DNA from: Sedimentisphaerales bacterium
GTDB lineage: Bacteria > Planctomycetota > Phycisphaerae > Sedimentisphaerales > UBA12454
Assembly (NCBI GenBank): GCA_016930635.1
Contig: JAFGGI010000060.1
Span: 1-46,490 of the forward strand
Length of the DNA: 46,490 bases
Direction: 5' to 3'
The notes under the pieces were generated by a model, which did no database searches, was not told the origin of the DNA, and was given only the letters and a program-made list of their open reading frames with translations. The position numbers and the translations under genes are program-made. Numbering within the stretch: position 1 is the stretch's first letter; each line of letters opens with the position of its first letter. This document shows positions 15,999-31,633 of this stretch, piece by piece.

Positions 15999-18900
15999 CT
16001 AATGTTCAATTGCCCCTAAATCAGGCCGTGATCCATTGTAACTGATACCTGAGTATGTAACTCCTGCATCAATAAACGAACTTCCGGATGCCAGATTCAG
16101 GAATCCGTTTGAAGTTGGATCGCTATTCGGCCCGGGATTTAATGTTACAAAATCAGAAGATGATGTGACATACTCCCAGTTGAAATCTGTATCATCAAGA
16201 GCATTACAGTTAGTCGGAGCATCTCCAACAATTCTGTCAGTATGGTTACCCTGGTATGTAACACAGTTTCTGAATGTATGTGATGCACCGTCTCTTACAT
16301 GATAATTATAATCACCGTTGTCATAAGCTGTCAGGTTGATAAACTTAATATTTCCGATGTTACCATTATCTGTAAATCCGTGTTTTCCGTTACTAAACGC
16401 AATACAGCGGTACAGTTCATGGTTGATTGTGTGTGCTGAAGAACCAAGTTTGAAACCATTTTTGTCGCCGCTTCCTGATGTTGAACCGTCTGTTAATGTA
16501 CCATTATTGTGCGCAATACAATTGTAAAACTTAACAACACCTATCGCACCGGTATCAGATTTTGTATATAAATCCCAACCGTCATCAATATTATGGTGAG
16601 CTACGCATCCTTCAAAAACATTTCCTGTACCACAAGTGAGTTTAGCTGCAAAACCATCTGCATCTTCTGTATCTGAATCTGCATTATTGTATGCTTCACA
16701 ATTCAGAATATAGTTGTTTGACGGCCATTCGCTGATTGAATCAGCATCTGTATTGTAGCGTGACAACTGCAGGCCAGAGTCTCTGTTTGCTGTGAAAATA
16801 CAGTTTTCGATAATATTATCGTTTCCGGAAAGGAGCATACCGTTATCACCGGCTTCACGAATAGTAATACCGTAAATATGCCAGTAGTTACCATCAAGAA
16901 CAAATCCGCGTGCAGAACTATCATCAGCACTGGCGTTCCAGTCAAGAACCGGGGTGCCGCTTGCTGCCCTGATAGATTTTCTGGAAGACGAAGTTCCTGA
17001 ATTATTTTCTGCAACCAAAATTGTTCCGGAAATATTATATGTTCCACTATTCAACCAGATGGTTCGTCCTGCAGATATTGAGTTAATTGCTGCCTGAATA
17101 TCATCACCTGGGCTTAGAGTAATATCTCCTGTTACTGGTGTAGGTGTAGGTGTAGGAGTACCTGTTGGCGTTGGAGTAGGTGTCGGTGAACCTGTCGGAG
17201 TAGGTGTAGGAGTAGGAGTAGGTCCGCCACTACCTGATAAGCTCATGTAGAAAAGATACGCTACATTGTCCTTACTTAATGTATGGTCGCCTGATCCAAG
17301 TTCTATAGTAAGTATTCCACCTGAGACACTTTGGCTTACTCCATCAACTCTAAAACCGCCGCTCCAGCCTTCGTTGAATACACATGTTAATGTTCCTGAT
17401 CCGTTGAAAGTAATTGAAGTACTGGATTCAATCTTCAAGCATTGTGTCAATGTCAATCCTGCATAGAATACAGTGCCGTATGAGGTAGAAAGGTTGCCGG
17501 ATATGTTAAAGAAAGAACTTGATAGACCATCTGTTGTAAAGTTGTGAACTATATCATCGCCTGGCGTTGGTGTCGGAGTTGGTGTTGACGTAGGAGTCGG
17601 AGTAGGTGTCGCTGTAGGTGTTGGAGTCGGTGTCGGTGTTGCAGTCGGTGTTGGTGTTGGTGTTGCCGAGCAGCTTGCAACCTGAATGTTAGGACCATCT
17701 ATCTGCATATAGTCGACATTAGGCAATCCCGCGCTGTTCGTAGCCTGAAGACGCATATCCTTTAATCCTGCGCTCAAATATACACTGGTTGATTCAGTAG
17801 TCCAGCTTGTCCAGCCGCCTGTACCTGCGAAGCTGAACGAACATGCTGTTGAACCGTTTACGATCAAGTTTGCCGAACGGGCACTTGAGCCGTTGGCATA
17901 TCTGACGGTAACGGTATACGTACCTGCTGTAACTACATTTGTCATATAGTCGATGCCGGTTCCGCTGGCATTGTCTGTATTTGCATAACCTGAACCTGTA
18001 TATCCGCTATGGTCAGATTGAACTGCACCATCTACATCACAGAATCCTGTCTGGTTTTCCTGTATGACAATACCACCGCCTGGCGTAGGGGTAGGTGTCG
18101 GCGTTGGCGTAGGAGTAGGTGTCGGCGTTGGCGTAGGAGTAGGTGTCGGCGTTGGCGTAGGAGTAGGAGTCGGCGTTGGCGTAGGAGTAGGAGTCGGCGT
18201 AGGTGTAGGCGTTGGTGTCGGGGTTGGCGTAGGTCCGCCACCTCCAGAGATAGTCCCGGCAGATGCTGTTAAAATGACCTTATCCAATATGCTGCCATCT
18301 TCTCTTCTACATACCCTCAAAGTGTGTGAACCTGATGATAAGCTGTTAAAAGTAGCTACAGAAAGTACTGAATATCCGCTTGTTTGCGTATTGTTTTGAG
18401 TACTCCATGAGCCTGAATCCATTTTGTAATGGAATGAGTCATTGGAGCCATTAGAGAAATTTACCTGAATCTGGAACTGTACATTTGCACTCTGCGACAG
18501 TGTAAACGATATCAGTACCTGACCATCTGCAGAATCTGATGGTGAGCTTAAAATATCGTTGCTGTTATCCGGCCATACTATTGCCTGTCCGCCGGATGCA
18601 GATCCATCACTGATTACCGTAAGCGGTGCAAACTGGCTCTGGCCTGAGAGACTTTCAAGCTCTACTTCCAGTGTGCTGCCGCCTGGCGTAGGTGTTGGTG
18701 TCGGAGTAGGAGTCGGCGTAGGTGTAGATGTCGGTGTCGGCGTTGGTGTTGCAGAACAGCTTGCTGCCTGAACATCAGGGCCGGTTATCTCTATGTAATC
18801 GACATTAGGCAGACCGCTGCTGTTTGTAGCTTCAATAGCTATATCACTTATCCCTGCCGACAAATATACACTGACTGATTCGGTATCCCAGGTTGTCCAT

Positions 18901-19220
18901 GTACCGGTGCCGGCAAAGCTGAATGCCTCTATTGTTAAACCGTTTACGATCAAATCTGCCGAACGAGAGCTTGAACCGTTGGCGAATCTGACTGTAACGG
19001 TATATGTACCCGCTGTTCCTACATTCGCCTTATAGTCAATACCATTTCCACTGGCATTGTCCGTATTTGCATAACCTGAACCTGTATAGCCTGAATGCTC
19101 AGATTCAATATCACCATCTACATTGCAGAAGCCGGTCTCATTTTCCTGTATGACAACGGCCAATGCAACGGATGGCATGAGAATAAGTACTATAAGAATT
19201 AGTTTCATTAACTTTAACAT
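15999..19220 (-). CDS. Secreted multi-modular PL9-type pectate lyase with carbohydrate-binding modules
   Basis: The 1073-residue protein has a signal peptide (residues 1-21). A CBM6/35-like module (about 22-155) is repeated nearly identically at about 384-511; different beta-sandwich modules lie at about 180-323 and 554-663; Thr-Pro linkers join them, the longest at about 328-382. Residues 700-1073 form a right-handed beta-helix. DADGFAAK (Asp855), DDGWD (Asp879, Asp880, Asp883) and NGFKLG (Lys924) match the spacing of the calcium-binding aspartates and the catalytic lysine of polysaccharide lyase family 9, so it probably cleaves polygalacturonate or a related uronan by beta-elimination outside the cell. 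AAAAGGAGG precedes the ATG. No dockerin or PEP-CTERM is present. Substrate within PL9 (pectate, rhamnogalacturonan) cannot be told by eye. Confidence 0.88.
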   Translation of the reverse strand: MLKLMKLILIVLILMPSVALAVVIQENETGFCNVDGDIESEHSGYTGSGYANTDNASGNGIDYKANVGTAGTYTVTVRFANGSSSRSADLIVNGLTIEAFSFAGTGTWTTWDTESVSVYLSAGISDIAIEATNSSGLPNVDYIEITGPDVQAASCSATPTPTPTSTPTPTPTPTPTPTPGGSTLEVELESLSGQSQFAPLTVISDGSASGGQAIVWPDNSNDILSSPSDSADGQVLISFTLSQSANVQFQIQVNFSNGSNDSFHYKMDSGSWSTQNNTQTSGYSVLSVATFNSLSSGSHTLRVCRREDGSILDKVILTASAGTISGGGGPTPTPTPTPTPTPTPTPTPTPTPTPTPTPTPTPTPTPTPTPTPTPTPTPTPGGGIVIQENQTGFCDVDGAVQSDHSGYTGSGYANTDNASGTGIDYMTNVVTAGTYTVTVRYANGSSARSANLIVNGSTACSFSFAGTGGWTSWTTESTSVYLSAGLKDMRLQATNSAGLPNVDYMQIDGPNIQVASCSATPTPTPTATPTPTPTPTATPTPTPTSTPTPTPTPGDDIVHNFTTDGLSSSFFNISGNLSTSYGTVFYAGLTLTQCLKIESSTSITFNGSGTLTCVFNEGWSGGFRVDGVSQSVSGGILTIELGSGDHTLSKDNVAYLFYMSLSGSGGPTPTPTPTPTGSPTPTPTPTGTPTPTPTPVTGDITLSPGDDIQAAINSISAGRTIWLNSGTYNISGTILVAENNSGTSSSRKSIRAASGTPVLDWNASADDSSARGFVLDGNYWHIYGITIREAGDNGMLLSGNDNIIENCIFTANRDSGLQLSRYNTDADSISEWPSNNYILNCEAYNNADSDTEDADGFAAKLTCGTGNVFEGCVAHHNIDDGWDLYTKSDTGAIGVVKFYNCIAHNNGTLTDGSTSGSGDKNGFKLGSSAHTINHELYRCIAFSNGKHGFTDNGNIGNIKFINLTAYDNGDYNYHVRDGASHTFRNCVTYQGNHTDRIVGDAPTNCNALDDTDFNWEYVTSSSDFVTLNPGPNSDPTSNGFLNLASGSSFIDAGVTYSGISYNGSRPDLGAIEH
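18082..18231 (-). repeat. 24-bp minisatellite encoding the longest Thr-Pro linker
   Basis: About six copies of a 24-bp unit (GGCGTAGGAGTAGG plus TGTCGGCGTT on the plus strand) lie head to tail, the central ones almost identical. Read on the minus strand they give TPTPTPTP. Such an array can expand or contract in 8-residue steps without shifting the frame. Shorter, more diverged arrays encode the other linkers (about 17140-17220, 17560-17665, 18684-18752). Confidence 0.8.
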
Positions 19221-22645: not shown

Positions 22646-23908
22646 ATGTCAATGACAATAACGGAAAAGATACTTGCCGCTGCGGCAGGTAAAAAGAAAG
22701 TTGAGCCCGGCGATGTAATCGACGCGAAGATCGACTGCATTATGTGTCACGATGTGACGACTCCGCCGGCAATTTCCATGCTCAGGGAAAAAGGTATCGA
22801 TAAGGTCTTCGATGCCGACAAGATCGTTGTCACGCCGGACCATTTCCAGCCGGCCAAAGATATTAAAAGCGCCGAGCTGCATAAAAGGCTCGATACCTGG
22901 GCAAGAGAAAAGAAAATAAAAAATTACTATCCGGTCGGTAAAGCAGGTGTCTGTCACGCGCTGCTGCCTGAGCAGGGTCATATCAGGCCGGGCGAAGTTA
23001 TCGTCGGCGGAGACAGCCATACCTGTACCTATGGAGCACTTGCGGCTTTTTCAACCGGTATCGGCTCAACCGATCTGGCTGCCGCTATAGCTACAGGAAA
23101 ACTGTGGTTCAAAGTTCCTGCATCGATAAAGTTCGTACTCAACGGCAAACTTTCAAAAGGTGTTTACAGCAAAGATGTGATCCTGGCCTGTATAGCAAAG
23201 ATCGGCACAGATGGTGCGCTCTATAAAGCGATGGAATTTGTCGGCCCGGCCCTGAAAGATATGTCGGCAGAAGCTCGGATGACCATTACGAATATGGCTA
23301 TCGAGGCAGGCGGCAAGAACGGCATTATCGGCTTCGATGACGTAACAAAAAAATATCTCGATGAGCACCTCAAGGATAAAAAAGAATATACCGTTTACGA
23401 ATCGGACCCGGATGCAGTCTATGAACAGACGATAGAAATTAACTGTTCCAGGCTTGAGCCGATAGTTGCCTTTCCGCATCTTCCAAGCTGCGGAAAACCT
23501 ATAAGCAAATGTGCCGGAGTTGCAATGGACCAGGCCTACATCGGAAGCTGCACCAACGGCAGAATGGAAGACCTGAGAATCGCCGCTCAGATACTCAAAG
23601 GCAAAAAAGTTGCGATAAGGACTATCATCGTGCCTGCCACTCCTGAAATCTGGAGACAGGCGATGGATGAAGGTCTGTTCGATATCTTTTACGATGCAGG
23701 CTGTGTAATTTCTGCGCCGACCTGCGGTGCGTGCCTTGGCGGGTTTATGGGAATCTTAGCTGAAGGCGAAAAATGCGTAAGTACAACAAACAGAAACTTT
23801 GTCGGCAGGATGGGACATCCGAAAAGTGAAGTCTATCTGGCCAGCCCTGCAACTGCAGCGGCAAGCGCAGTTGAAGGCAAGCTTGCCGACCCAAGAAAAT
23901 ATATTTAA
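22646..23908 (+). CDS. leuC: 3-isopropylmalate dehydratase large subunit
   Basis: The 420-residue aconitase-family protein isomerises 2- to 3-isopropylmalate together with LeuD. Cluster cysteines are visible in [13 protein letters not shown] and in [13 protein letters not shown] (Cys-x-x-Cys), and [23 protein letters not shown] is the substrate-binding block. The length is that of the archaeal/HACN-like short form. AGGG lies before the ATG, and the gene follows leuA by 12 nt. A 490-bp cassette with a four-helix-bundle gene separates it from leuD, an unusual break between two subunits of one enzyme. Confidence 0.95.
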
Positions 23909-23951: not shown

Positions 23952-24317
23952 ATGACAAAAACTCAAAATCCAAAACAATATGACCTTGAAGACAGGACAC
24001 TGAAGTTTGCAAAACGGACGAGAGAATTTATCAGAAGAATCGATAGAACTCTGGCAAACATAGAAGATAGCAAACAGCTTATCAGGTCGTCAGGGTCTAT
24101 TGGTGCAAACTATATTGAGGCTAATGAAGCTTTGAGCAAAAAAGACTTTGCTATGCGTGTTAAAATATGTCGTAAGGAAGCTAAAGAAAGTAGATACTGG
24201 CTACAACTGGTGAATACAGACGGCAAAAACGACTTGGAGCAGGAAAAGCATGCTTTGCAGGAAGAAGCCCGTGAACTTACGCATATTTTTGGTTCCATCG
24301 TAACCAAAAGTACCTAG
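23952..24317 (+). CDS. Four helix bundle protein (23S rRNA-intervening-sequence family)
   Basis: The 121-residue protein matches PF05635/TIGR02436: FAKRTREFIRRI, SKQLIRSSGSIGANYIEANEALSKKDFAMRVKICRKEAKESRYWLQLV, then a last helix with EEARELTHIFGSIVTK. The LxRSxxSIGANYxEA block is diagnostic. Relatives are encoded in intervening sequences of 23S rRNA genes, and the fold resembles Avd of diversity-generating retroelements; no molecular role is established. No Shine-Dalgarno precedes the ATG, and the first codons are themselves built from the flanking repeat words. The gene with its inverted flanks is wedged between leuC and leuD on the operon strand. A related gene lies at 40546-40893. Confidence 0.85.
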   Translation: MTKTQNPKQYDLEDRTLKFAKRTREFIRRIDRTLANIEDSKQLIRSSGSIGANYIEANEALSKKDFAMRVKICRKEAKESRYWLQLVNTDGKNDLEQEKHALQEEARELTHIFGSIVTKST

Positions 24318-24400: not shown

Positions 24401-24883
24401 ATGATGTCTATAGCACATGTATACAAAAGAGACCATATAAATACGGACGAGATTATACCTGCAAGATATCTCAATACCGATGACATGGCAGAACTTGCCA
24501 CGCATTGTATGGAAGATCTGGATACTGAGTTCGTAAAGAAATGTCAGCCTGGCGATTGTATAGTTGCCGATGAGGATTTCGGCTGCGGCTCGAGCAGGGA
24601 ACACGCTGTCTGGGCGCTTCAGGGCGCTAAAGTCGGTGCCGTTATCGCTAAAACCTTTGCGAGGATATTCTATCGCAATTGTATCAATTGCGGGTTCTAT
24701 CCTATTGAACTTGACGGCGCAACGGATAAAATAAGCAACGGCGACGAAATCGAAGTCGATTACGAAAAGGGTGTAATTAATAACAAGACCCGGAATAAAG
24801 AGATAAAGTTTAAGCCGCTGCCTGATTTTGCTATTGAAATAATAAAAGATGGCGGATTACTCAACCATATAAAGAAAGGTTAA
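24401..24883 (+). CDS. leuD: 3-isopropylmalate dehydratase small subunit
   Basis: The 160-residue swivel-domain subunit partners Leu[14 protein letters not shown], the catalytic loop [30 protein letters not shown] and the [11 protein letters not shown] turn all match LeuD of the short type. It has its own AAGG ribosome binding site just after the inverted repeat of the inserted cassette. With leuC it forms a heterodimer, so any polarity caused by the cassette would unbalance the enzyme. The start is ATG at 24401 or the next codon. Confidence 0.94.
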
Positions 24884-27359: not shown

Positions 27360-27551
27360 ATGGAATGTAAGAAGCAGGAAAATCTCGCATTTTGTAAGTG
27401 CACATATCCGTGCTCCAAAAGAGGTATCTGCTGTGAGTGTATCCAGCAGCATTTGGCATCAAAAGAACTTCCCGGCTGCTGTTTCCCGCCTGATGTGGAA
27501 AAGACCTATGACCGCAGCTTCAGAGCATTTGCAAAAGCGTGGAAATTATAA
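27360..27551 (+). CDS. Small cysteine-rich protein, DUF6485-like
   Basis: The 63-residue protein has nine cysteines, arranged [18 protein letters not shown], then [11 protein letters not shown] and later GCCFP. The order and the [18 protein letters not shown] end agree with the DUF6485 family of anaerobes, which presumably bind metal or an Fe-S cluster. AAGGAG lies before the ATG, so it is actively translated. It lies 45 nt after the TGS GTPase and 50 nt before the sigma-like gene on the same strand. Function is unknown. Confidence 0.75.
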
Positions 27552-27601
27552 GAATATTCAAATTGCTTTAACTCAACTATAAATTCGGGCCGGTCAAAAA
27601 T

Positions 27602-29971
27602 ATGGCTAAAGCCGAGGCAGAAAATGTTCGTGACCCACTTGTAAGCCGTGCTGCTTCAGACAGTGCTGCTTTCGAACTGCTTTACGACATATATTATGAA
27701 AAAATATTCAGCTACTGCATAGGCAGGATTCGTTTCAGGCAAACCGCCGAAGATATAACAAGCACCGCATTTTTGTCTGCAGCCAGAGATATTTCCAGAT
27801 TTAAGGGAACAACCAGGGCAGATTTTGTTAACTGGCTATACACAATAGCTACCGTAAAAATAGATTCTTATCTTAAAACACAACATATACCCCAAACTTC
27901 AGATTCAAAATCAGATACAATTACCTGGCCGTTACTGCACAGTGCCATCTTAAAGCTCGGGCTAAAAGATCAGGCTGTTATAGTAATGAGATTTTTTGAA
28001 AATATAGCCATTTCCAGAATAGCTGATATTATTAACTCAAGATCTGACCTTATTCGTATCAGAATTGCAGAAGTAATTGATGAACTCAAAAAAATTATTC
28101 TTCTGCAAACTAAAGATATAGAATTGCCTGAGACAGAAAAACAGTTTGAAAATCTCGTAAAAACACTTGATATAGACAATACGCCGGATGCCGGCCACAA
28201 AGCAAGGCTGCGAGCAAAAATACCTTCTGTTTTTGGTCGCCGGCAGGCAAGAGAATACCCGTCAATCTTATACCTGGCTGCAGGTGCAGCGCTATTATTG
28301 GTACTAATAATTATTTTATGGTCCTATCCCGCAAATAAGACTTCGATCACTCAACAAAATATTTCCAAACAACCCGAAACAGCAGTTGAGGCAGACCTTC
28401 CGCCAAACCAGGAAGAAATATCAAGACTTGAAAAAATCAAAAAGCTTGCTTCTGAAAAGAATATCCCCCAGCTCCTGGAAATACTCAAAAGCGATGACAT
28501 CGCTTCGAGACTCCTGGCTGCAAAATTCCTGGCGGAACTTACTGATTCCAATCTTGCCGAGGTAATAAAAATTGCCCTGCCGACAGAAGAAATTAATTCT
28601 GACAATCGTACTGAACAAATGCCGCCTGAGATAAAAACACTGTTAATATCTACGATCGACAAAAAAATAGACCAGCCTCTGCCGTCTGTAAATCTGGAAA
28701 TTCTATTCGATAAATGGGTAAAACCACTTCAGGTCCTGACTGACGAACAGGGTCAATACCAGTTTACATTGCCGCAACAAAAATTTAACTGGTTCAGAAT
28801 AAGTGCTGCTAAAGAAGGTTACGCAAGCATGGTCGTTAAGCAGCAGGATTTGAAACTTTCCGAATTGTTTACTCTTGAAACAATCTTTTTCAGAATGCCC
28901 GAGGTAATTACAATAGGAGGGATAGTTCAGGATGAAGACTTTGAGCCGATAGAAAATGCAGAGGTACGTGTAATTGCTGACTTCGACGATGACGAGATTG
29001 ACGAGATGCCAAAAATAGATATAAGCGGAGTATTCAAAACTGATGTTAACGGTTTCTGGAAATGTGACACTTTTCCCGAAGACAGCCTAAAAGCTGCTAT
29101 AAAAGCATCGCATCCGAATTATGTATCACAGGAAACTTACCTGCCTGCAACTATTGAACAACTTAAAAATTTAATGTATATCACAATTCTCGAACAGGGT
29201 ATAACCGTAATTGGCAGAGCAACCGATTACACAGAGGGTCCCTTGTCAGCAACCATTACCAGAGGACTTTATTATAACCAGGATGAGAAAAGCGTACGTT
29301 GTGACAAAGACGGCTGGTTCCAATTTAATAATGTCCCTCTTGGTAACGAAGTTTTTTTTGCACAATGCCAGGGAGGAGCACCACGAATACAGCAGGTTGA
29401 TGTTCAACCGGATATGCCACCGATAATTTTCGTGCTTGAACCTGCAAAGACTATTCGCGCAAAAGTCGTAGACATCGAAGGGGTACCTGTAGAAAATGCT
29501 GTTGTAGAAGTGTCGTCGTGGCATGGTTTCGATCTGCTTAATTTTGAGACGACAACAGATGCAAACGGTTTCTTTGTCTGGAAAGATGCCCCGCAAGATG
29601 AGGTTTTATTCGATATTTCCAAACCAGGTTATCTCAGTATCCGCAGCTTCGGCATGCAAAGCGAAAACGATTATGTATTAACACTTCTTGAGCCGTTCGA
29701 AATATCCGGCCAGGTTCTAAGCGACAACCCCGATCAGCCGGTAAAAACATTTAAAATAATCGTCAGCTATTATCAGGATGACACCGGTGAAATATTGATG
29801 GAAAGGACAAATCCAACAACATTTTCCGGCAGCGAGTACAACCTGGTCATTACAGAGCCTTTCGATTTTCAACTGGTACTGCAGGCTAATGGTTTTGTGC
29901 CGGCCAAGTCACCTGTCTTCTCTGCCGAACAAAACGTTTCAGAATATGATTTTATCCTTACGCCAAGGTAA
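27602..29971 (+). CDS. ECF sigma-like domain fused to a TM segment and carboxypeptidase-regulatory-like domains
   Basis: The 789-residue protein combines four parts. Residues 15-85 resemble sigma-70 region 2 (FELLYDIYYEKIFSYC, QTAEDITSTAFLSAARD, FVNWLYTIATVKIDSYL). Residues 105-165 resemble region 4 (LGLKDQAVIVMRFFENIAISRIADIINS), although the recognition helix is degenerate. A membrane helix lies at about 220-243 (ILYLAAGAALLLVLIIILW), then a short HEAT-like helical region at 265-325. Residues 340-789 hold four to five beta-sandwich repeats of the carboxypeptidase regulatory type (TDANGFFVWKDAPQDEVLF and similar). A cytoplasmic sigma-like head tethered to an exported sensor is the natural topology. 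It may work like ECF sigma factors with built-in anti-sigma function, but no target promoter is known. Confidence 0.75.
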   Translation: MAKAEAENVRDPLVSRAASDSAAFELLYDIYYEKIFSYCIGRIRFRQTAEDITSTAFLSAARDISRFKGTTRADFVNWLYTIATVKIDSYLKTQHIPQTSDSKSDTITWPLLHSAILKLGLKDQAVIVMRFFENIAISRIADIINSRSDLIRIRIAEVIDELKKIILLQTKDIELPETEKQFENLVKTLDIDNTPDAGHKARLRAKIPSVFGRRQAREYPSILYLAAGAALLLVLIIILWSYPANKTSITQQNISKQPETAVEADLPPNQEEISRLEKIKKLASEKNIPQLLEILKSDDIASRLLAAKFLAELTDSNLAEVIKIALPTEEINSDNRTEQMPPEIKTLLISTIDKKIDQPLPSVNLEILFDKWVKPLQVLTDEQGQYQFTLPQQKFNWFRISAAKEGYASMVVKQQDLKLSELFTLETIFFRMPEVITIGGIVQDEDFEPIENAEVRVIADFDDDEIDEMPKIDISGVFKTDVNGFWKCDTFPEDSLKAAIKASHPNYVSQETYLPATIEQLKNLMYITILEQGITVIGRATDYTEGPLSATITRGLYYNQDEKSVRCDKDGWFQFNNVPLGNEVFFAQCQGGAPRIQQVDVQPDMPPIIFVLEPAKTIRAKVVDIEGVPVENAVVEVSSWHGFDLLNFETTTDANGFFVWKDAPQDEVLFDISKPGYLSIRSFGMQSENDYVLTLLEPFEISGQVLSDNPDQPVKTFKIIVSYYQDDTGEILMERTNPTTFSGSEYNLVITEPFDFQLVLQANGFVPAKSPVFSAEQNVSEYDFILTPR

Positions 29972-30212: not shown

Positions 30213-30292
30213 TAAATTAAAGTCGCACATCCATGGAGGGGGTGTTTCCAGGGCTTTTTTTGCCGGGAGGAGACTTTATAAAAAGCAATAAA

Positions 30293-31633
30293 ATGAAAGA
30301 TGTGTCCACAATAAAAGAGATAGTCTGGTTGCAGCCCGATTTATGGCTACGGCTTATGTTGGCGGTAGTGGTTACTCTGCCCGTCGGGCAGATAGCTTAT
30401 GCCGAGCAGCAATATCAGCTTGCCAAACAGCAACACCAGCTTGCCCAGCAGAAAACCGAGTATTTCAAGCTTGTTTCCACTGTTGAATACATGGCGAAGC
30501 GCGGAAGTGAAGAAAAGCGATATCGTCATCAGCTCGAACCATGGTTTATAGTTACCTCCGCTCCGCAAAATCCGGACCAGACACATTACAATCTTATAAC
30601 CACAGATTTTCAGCTTCGTGACCCGAGCTCTTATGAATTGTACAGGGGCATCGACGAGATAAACTACGGGCTGATCGGGAAACGATACATTTCGAATGTC
30701 GACGATGACCTGCTGCATTTGCGGACGATGAATAATGAGTGTGTAAAGGTTCTTGCTGACGAATCCCCAAAAGAAGTCGGTGATACGTGGACATGCAGAT
30801 TTAATCTCGGGCTGTTCAACCATTACTCACTTCCTGACGAATTGAGATTTACCGTAACATCAATCACCGTTCCGACTGATGAGCTCGGCGATCTTGTCGC
30901 TGTTCGTGCGATATCTGATCCGTTTATGGTAAAAGCTCTTCGGCAGATCGAAGGTTACGGCTATGTCAAGTGTAAGATCGCCGCGGTTTACCTCTTCGAC
31001 CCATATGTATATGAAACCGATGCAGAAGATATATATGTAAGCGCAATGGTCTTTTTGGCTTCTACAAATATGGACAGTATGGACCAGCAATACCGTTACG
31101 AATTCGGCACATATAAAACAGAGCCGAACACCGCGCCGGTCGATATGGAAGGTCTCGGCTTTGAGCTTGAAGATTTTGTCAGGGAAATCGAACTGATACC
31201 GGAGCCGATGGAAGTAGACCCGAATGAAACCGCAGGCCTGCCGTCCTGGGCACAATCGGAAGTGGCAAATGCCGCACAAATAGCTTCAGCCTGTGCAGCG
31301 GTTGCCTGTGAACAGAATGTGGTAAATCCCGTCGCAAGCATCTATCTTGCTGCAGCAAGAACCTATCAGCTTCAGAAAGATATGTGCGTGCTTATCCCGG
31401 AACCATGTCCGAGAAGTGTTTGCCAGGCTCTTAGATATGATGTAGAAGAAATTTATCCTATGGAGATTTGCGGCGGAAGACCTCTGCCTCTCTGGCCGCT
31501 TGGTTTCATACCTCTTGCATTCGTCAGCCATGGTGGCGGCGGCGGTGGAGGCGGCGACGACAAAAGTCCTTATAAACCGACATGTGCACCACCCGCATCT
31601 CCTACGCCTACTCCAACTCCATCCGGCGGTTAA
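30293..31633 (+). CDS. Secreted or membrane-anchored protein of unknown function
   Basis: I do not recognise this protein of about 446 residues. A hydrophobic segment near residues 17-37 (RLMLAVVVTLPVGQIAYA) looks like a signal peptide; a Gln-rich helix (YQLAKQQHQLAQQKTEYF) follows. The middle is a mixed alpha/beta domain rich in acidic residues, and the C-terminus has eight consecutive Gly, four Cys-containing turns and a short SPTPTPTPSGG tail like the linkers of the PL9 lyase. The start is uncertain: ATG at 30233 has no ribosome binding site, ATG at 30293 is 20 nt from a strong GGAGGAG (30266-30272), and an in-frame ATA at 30278 lies at the ideal distance. A good promoter is upstream. Confidence 0.6.
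   Translation: MKDVSTIKEIVWLQPDLWLRLMLAVVVTLPVGQIAYAEQQYQLAKQQHQLAQQKTEYFKLVSTVEYMAKRGSEEKRYRHQLEPWFIVTSAPQNPDQTHYNLITTDFQLRDPSSYELYRGIDEINYGLIGKRYISNVDDDLLHLRTMNNECVKVLADESPKEVGDTWTCRFNLGLFNHYSLPDELRFTVTSITVPTDELGDLVAVRAISDPFMVKALRQIEGYGYVKCKIAAVYLFDPYVYETDAEDIYVSAMVFLASTNMDSMDQQYRYEFGTYKTEPNTAPVDMEGLGFELEDFVREIELIPEPMEVDPNETAGLPSWAQSEVANAAQIASACAAVACEQNVVNPVASIYLAAARTYQLQKDMCVLIPEPCPRSVCQALRYDVEEIYPMEICGGRPLPLWPLGFIPLAFVSHGGGGGGGGDDKSPYKPTCAPPASPTPTPTPSGG

Follow-up and report, generated by a model that had tools for sequence, protein, structure and literature searches.

A reading frame from the order Sedimentisphaerales represents an ECF sigma factor fused in frame to its operon-partner membrane protein. 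Sigma activity has probably been largely given up in the fusion, leaving a membrane-bound module of sigma region 2 (sigma2) and partner, a reading held with moderate confidence from comparative sequence analysis. The frame lies in a window of 46,490 nucleotides, i.e. the whole stretch of DNA that was analysed, belonging to a 2.45-Mb draft genome of 64 contigs (G000); the relatives named below are Phycisphaerae and Planctomycetes metagenome assemblies.

Architecture of the fused gene

The gene is a single unbroken ATG open reading frame, comprising, in this order, an ECF sigma2, a degenerate sigma region 4 (sigma4), one transmembrane (TM) helix, a small domain of helices and CarboxypepD_reg repeats that are exported. 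The features are as follows.

27602..29971, + strand: whole open reading frame, sigma/membrane-partner fusion, 789 aa
27632..27880, + strand: sigma region 2, residues 11-93 (Pfam at 27-93, AlphaFold2/Foldseek, column analysis, dN/dS)
27854..27856, + strand: V85 codon (column analysis against two-gene sigma factors; role of N88 from PMC6411747)
27929..28105, + strand: degenerate sigma region 4, residues 110-168 (deleted in 9/11 orthologous fusions)
28127..28249, + strand: pre-TM partner motif, residues 176-216, including EKQFENLVKTLDIDNTPDAGHKARLRAKIPSVF (homology to the N-terminus of the separate partner; candidate anti-sigma element)
28262..28318, + strand: single TM helix, residues 221-239 (hydropathy)
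28427..28591, + strand: short helical HEAT-like element just beyond the membrane, residues 276-330 (weak alphaRep/HEAT matches)
28631..29968, + strand: exported CarboxypepD_reg beta-sandwich repeats, residues 344-789 (Pfam; orthologues)
30233..31633, + strand: neighbour protein (adjoins the fusion in G004; at a contig end beside the fusion in G007)

The initial annotation had placed a sigma-factor-like head, a membrane helix and exported repeats in one chain, and this layout was confirmed as one open reading frame and is conserved in the orthologues. The TM segment is the only strong hydrophobic stretch (Kyte-Doolittle mean 2.8) and its N-terminal flank is the richer in basic residues. The exported part comprises ~550 residues, of which the beta-sandwich repeats account for ~445, with the CarboxypepD_reg family matched by Pfam in four stretches (E 1.5e-23). 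A segment similar to the HEAT-like element is also present in the unfused partner of G005.

Origin from a two-gene operon

Between sigma4 and the TM helix, the window protein carries a motif with a consensus of about FExxxxxLxIDDxPDxxHRxxLRxKxL, missed in the initial annotation, which is homologous to the N-terminus of a membrane protein encoded separately in the two-gene relatives. A profile built from the first 85 residues of the partner, of which the window and G004 are themselves rows, scored 72 bits (E 3e-21) in the window and 71 bits in G004. Of 35 distinct loci, 34 have the partner motif in the gene following the sigma factor; most of these gene pairs overlap or lie a few bases apart. 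The count is partly circular and becomes 25/26 once the nine loci contributing to the profile are set aside. Elsewhere in the order, the sigma subfamily of the window likewise has its best matches in two-gene pairs. The window protein thus has what defines this Phycisphaerae ECF-operon partner, namely the N-terminal motif with one TM helix and homology to the sigma-adjacent gene, and no second copy of the full motif was seen in its genome. The separate partner of G033 (L018) also matches the CarboxypepD_reg part of the window protein. For the partner motif, no anti-sigma domain of the ZAS, FecR or RsbN type was matched above chance in Pfam, NCBIfam or PDB; from its gene position, its membrane anchor and precedent, the partner is a candidate anti-sigma factor.

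A match was present in each of the family's 13 genomes, and in 11 of them a single open reading frame holds sigma2, the TM helix and the repeats. Orthologues with the same fusion, whose absence had been set as a refuting observation, are therefore present in 11 of the 13 species, and an assembly, sequencing or frameshift artefact is ruled out by these independent copies. In G003 and G005, a sigma factor gene is followed by a separate membrane gene, and in the rpoB tree G003, then G005, branch outside all fused species, the fused group having a support of 97/96. The gene rpsB adjoins the pair in G005 and the fusion in G001, G004, G006, G008, G009, G010 and G012, and these loci mostly also contain tsf, pyrH and frr. 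The shared position of the G005 pair and the seven fusions beside rpsB indicates that the fusion arose in place. Phylogeny and gene order together show that the fusion arose once, inside one family, from a two-gene ancestral layout.

No stop-free copy from outside the family was found among the matches listed for 161 genomes of the order, and a search with a sigma4-less head across 298 genomes of the class, at a strict threshold of E 1e-24, gave stop-free fusions only in this family. A search of plasmids returned only ordinary ECF sigma matches. Further candidate fusions in G115, G129, G084, G132, G123, G108, G073 and G072 were rejected as upstream extensions, the sigma part being C-terminal in the frame.

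Retention of sigma region 2

The Pfam family Sigma70_r2 matched residues 27-93 (E 9e-6, 25.8 bits against a cut-off of 24), and an NCBIfam model for ECF/BldN-type sigma factors spanned both regions (residues 17-165) at E 1.6e-18, a score far under the model's own cut-off. The best solved relative is BldN (E 2e-11). A structural comparison with ECF sigma factors, the check proposed in the initial annotation, supported the assignment of sigma2: AlphaFold2 modelling of residues 1-260 gave this region with confidence (pLDDT about 77-92 across residues 11-90), and Foldseek searches with the model returned sigma factors at probability 1.0, with every E-value at or above 0.001. The best of these matches were ECF sigma factors, among them region 2 of E. 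coli SigmaE on its -10 element (4lup; rmsd 2.6 A over 90 columns).

Sigma2 is conserved throughout the 11 fusions. The acidic pair E50-D51 facing beta' (TAED, region 2.2) is kept in the window, with E50 retained in 10/11 and D51 in all 11 fusions, and R72 of the specificity loop is strongly conserved. The most constrained blocks are LLYDIYYEK (region 2.1), E50-D51-T53-F57 (region 2.2) and F67-G69-TR72-F75-W78. In a fusion that lacks sigma4, AlphaFold2 gave a pLDDT of 88-96 per block of sigma2. Between pairs of sigma4-less fusions, sigma2 was 59-77% identical, with a dN/dS of about 0.11-0.29, these values being rough given a high dS near saturation. Wherever such a pair allowed both values to be calculated, the dN/dS of sigma2 was below that of the TM helix; often it was also below that of the pre-TM segment. 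These ratios indicate that the sigma2 remaining in the sigma4-less fusions is evolving under purifying selection.

A possible explanation is that sigma2 acts only as a structural cap, needed for the folding of the partner motif or the correct anchoring of the protein, with the exported domain doing the work, e.g. in adhesion or envelope maintenance, and no role in transcription. This would account for the joint retention of partner motif and sigma2, for a constraint on the exported fourth repeat about equal to that on sigma2 by dN/dS, and for G011, in which the conserved glutamate is lost and sigma2 drops below Pfam detection. However, the helices of sigma2 that should lie towards RNA polymerase or an anti-sigma factor (2.1 and 2.2) are among its most constrained blocks, and a purely structural role is considered very unlikely.

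Degeneration and deletion of sigma region 4

The initial annotation had described region 4 as degenerate, and this was borne out, as the window's sigma4 (~110-168) gave no Pfam match even at E 1, unlike the nearest orthologue (32 bits) and an unfused orthologue (54 bits). AlphaFold2 gave this region a pLDDT of 35-51 on a shallow alignment. The near-invariant sigma4 residues K120, P121, T128, T150, R157 and R163 are all altered in the window, R157, within the recognition helix region, having become E. An altered promoter preference, which had been suggested on the strength of this degeneracy, does not follow from these changes, which resemble loss rather than retuning. Between G000 and G004, sigma2 is 69% identical and sigma4 42-49%, as against 60% and 57%, i.e. 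alike, in sigma factors outside the family. In the same two genomes the dN/dS of sigma4 is 0.23 and that of sigma2 0.11, so that sigma4 is still constrained, but less so than sigma2.

In the window and G004 the start of the TM helix falls at about residues 221-229, and in the nine other fusions at about residues 133-143. By alignment, these nine are without the segment running from just after '..YLK' to just ahead of the partner motif, which takes in sigma4 together with its linkers. Loss of sigma4 in one event was not separated from loss in two by either the rpoB tree or the fusion tree. As sigma4 is deleted in nine fusions, whatever function is common to all 11 cannot need it.

Proteins of sigma2 type can work without a sigma4 of their own, as RsoA/SigO of B. 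subtilis and T4 gp55 do with known helpers, these being soluble and, unlike the window fusion, not membrane-tethered. The nine sister species resemble these systems in having sigma2 without its own sigma4, and it could be supposed that their fusions, perhaps also that of the window, still read the -10 element while another protein supplies the upstream contact. The strong purifying selection on sigma2 after sigma4 loss, the conservation of R72 and of the -10 pocket, and the existence of split sigma factors (SigO/RsoA) would fit such an arrangement. Against it, no sigma4-only helper gene common to the nine sigma4-less genomes was found, which weakens the split-sigma model; the short sigma4 reading frames in G008, G009 and G011 each adjoin their own sigma2 match, like broken or cut ECF genes. 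The fusions have further lost the wedge asparagine and basic patch described below. Continued reading of the -10 element by a lone sigma2 is thus regarded as very unlikely.

Loss of the -10 wedge and profile drift

Columns of the sigma alignment were compared with 34 two-gene sigma factors, namely 32 from outside the family together with those of G003 and G005. Position 85 holds Asn in each of the 32 outside sequences and in G005, Arg in the G003 sigma factor, and one of V, A, E and D in each of the 11 fusions (V85 in the window). It aligns with N88 of M. tuberculosis SigH and, by our own count, is presumably equivalent to N80 of E. coli SigmaE. In SigH, N88 wedges the -11/-10 step and the N88A variant is defective, and other ECF sigma factors carry His or Arg at this position (PMC6411747). 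The basic RR that follows the sigma2 helix is also gone from the fusions, and the -10 pocket (F67, W78 and I82) is largely kept. On paper, binding of single-stranded DNA by the fused sigma2 is therefore weakened, but it could persist since the pocket largely remains.

With region-specific profiles, the window scored below the sigma factors from outside the family by 3.2 sd for sigma2 and by 4.7 sd for sigma4. The two-gene sigma factor of G003 was 4.8 sd under them in both regions, as low as the fusions, which argues that part of the drift predates the fusion or is independent of it. Sigma function appears to erode after fusion, with the low score and Arg85 of G003 placing the probable start of the divergence before it. 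The head had been taken in the initial annotation for a working, promoter-specific sigma factor, which is difficult to reconcile with the loss of the wedge Asn in 11/11 fusions, the degeneration of sigma4 in the window and its deletion in 9/11.

Comparison with known systems and proposed function

The closest precedents for the window fusion are IutY of Pseudomonas putida and ECF52. IutY (ECF243) is a sigma factor fused to its own anti-sigma factor, which is cleaved by Prc and RseP to release the active sigma factor (PMC5411451, PMC8999054). Like it, the window protein combines an ECF sigma domain, a single TM helix and a regulatory periplasmic part within one polypeptide, which arises from a fused gene pair. 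It differs in that the exported part consists of a helical element and CarboxypepD_reg repeats with no Pfam FecR match, in that the cytoplasmic sigma module of the family is degenerate, most relatives being without sigma4, and in that proteolysis is here only predicted. ECF52 (SCO4117 of Streptomyces coelicolor), ECF48 and ECF53 have a C-terminal extension with TM helices, to which ECF52 adds an exported carbohydrate-binding domain (PMC8999054). These groups resemble the window fusion in the TM-bearing C-terminal extension, but they carry a zinc-finger anti-sigma domain, whereas the window has no zinc-finger match and no Cys in residues 165-221. In two-gene operons of the same order, the sigma factor and partner are homologous to the two halves of the window protein; those outside the family differ in keeping separate genes, the wedge Asn and a full sigma4.

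The precedent of IutY raises the prospect of a working hybrid in the window, in which an envelope cue would lead a site-1 protease and an RseP-like protease to cleave at the TM helix and free residues 1-~175 as an active ECF sigma factor whose promoter preference has changed; the sister proteins without sigma4 would then be derived losses. The architecture matches that of IutY (PMC5411451, PMC8999054), an RseP-like M50 site-2 protease encoded in the window's genome makes proteolytic release possible, the sigma4 of the window and G004 is under some constraint, pocket residues F67, W78 and I82 are kept, and the sigma-family model spans both regions. However, the wedge Asn and near-invariant sigma4 residues, including R157, are lost, sigma4 is invisible to Pfam, and the conserved function of the family cannot depend on a region that nine orthologues do without. 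A working hybrid of this kind is rather unlikely. Of the earlier proposal of a membrane-held sigma factor released by a cue, the tether stands, the sigma head and TM helix being in one chain, and release of a sigma factor is possible only in the window and one relative, at best a minority of the family.

In the favoured reading of a membrane-bound module of sigma2 and partner, we infer that the fused protein has largely abandoned promoter-specific sigma activity and has kept the sigma2 fold with the helices facing RNA polymerase or the anti-sigma factor (2.1/2.2), the partner motif, the TM helix and the exported domain; the window and G004 may retain part of their sigma activity. In the resting state, the partner motif would hold sigma2 in cis, and the exported domain of the candidate anti-sigma part would serve as a sensing or binding domain anchored via the one TM helix. 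Sigma2 would then be exposed, or a fragment containing it freed, by a signal at the envelope or by cleavage at the TM helix. The freed sigma2 could bind the beta' coiled coil and so compete weakly or modulate, while not directing promoters of its own. The target of the module would be RNA polymerase, or else it would function as a lock in cis. A more specific version, in which a domesticated sigma2-only membrane module docks on RNA polymerase or other regulators without promoter recognition and an envelope signal tunes transcription by sigma competition, is a tentative suggestion and seems fairly unlikely.

Genomic surroundings and other fusions

A polysaccharide cue had been proposed on account of a secreted lyase nearby. 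This Pel9A-like lyase with CBMs (15999-19220) is encoded ~8 kb away on the opposite strand, separated from the fusion by several genes. Its neighbourhood is not shared by the relatives examined, whose fusions stand beside rpsB-tsf-pyrH-frr or an ArsP/prismane cluster, so that distance and synteny speak against a cue tied to it. The protein encoded at 30233-31633 is a conserved neighbour of the fusion in G000, G004 and probably G007, and is found elsewhere in the genome in G005, G006 and G008. Just upstream of the fusion gene there is a small Cys-rich reading frame of about 63 aa (window positions 27361-27552). Aconitase is represented in the window by two open reading frames (22646-23908 and 24401-24883), with one of the 23S_rRNA_IVP family between them (23952-24317), and the two parts may be the normal large and small subunits.

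Several other fused or unusual frames were observed in related genomes. An independent fusion of ECF sigma factor, TM helix and CarboxypepD_reg (1383 aa) is encoded in G015 (L053:717-4868, - strand), and a second, unrelated class of ECF, TM and exported-domain fusions of about 440-665 aa is present in G005, G010, G002 and G009 (L144, L145, L148 and L149, respectively), and probably in G012. The G015 fusion and the class seen in G002, G005, G009 and G010 share with the window protein a sigma head, a TM helix and an exported C-terminal part; unlike it, they belong to another sigma subfamily, show no partner motif and have sigma2 and sigma4 detectable by Pfam.

On contig C50 of the window's own genome (L146:1705-2826, - strand), a GH130 glycoside phosphorylase (Pfam E 4e-52) is in frame with an orphan ECF sigma4 (E 7e-12), without sigma2 and followed by a gene resembling a zinc-finger-type anti-sigma factor. 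The GH130 and sigma parts match separately in the 39 relatives searched, which points to a private deletion or an assembly join. In G004, an ECF sigma factor with regions 2 and 4 shares one open reading frame with a type II/IV secretion (PilT-like) ATPase (L147:398-2047). The rpoB frames of G009 (L119) and G006 (L128) are about 200-230 residues longer than those of relatives, the G006 match being split in two parts, as an intein would give.

Implications

A conserved motif emerges from the analysis that marks a probable anti-sigma family and has no name in the libraries used. Fusions of sigma and anti-sigma factors are known from few cases, such as IutY, and what follows upon fusion is less clear. 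If a sigma2-only membrane module has indeed been domesticated in the way tentatively suggested above, this family would show the intermediate stages: two genes, the full fusion (the window and G004), deletion of sigma4 (nine species) and a decaying sigma2 (G011). One family displays such steps next to each other, ending in proteins whose membrane-bound sigma2 is under selection without sigma4, which bears on how sigma factors may be converted into other regulators.
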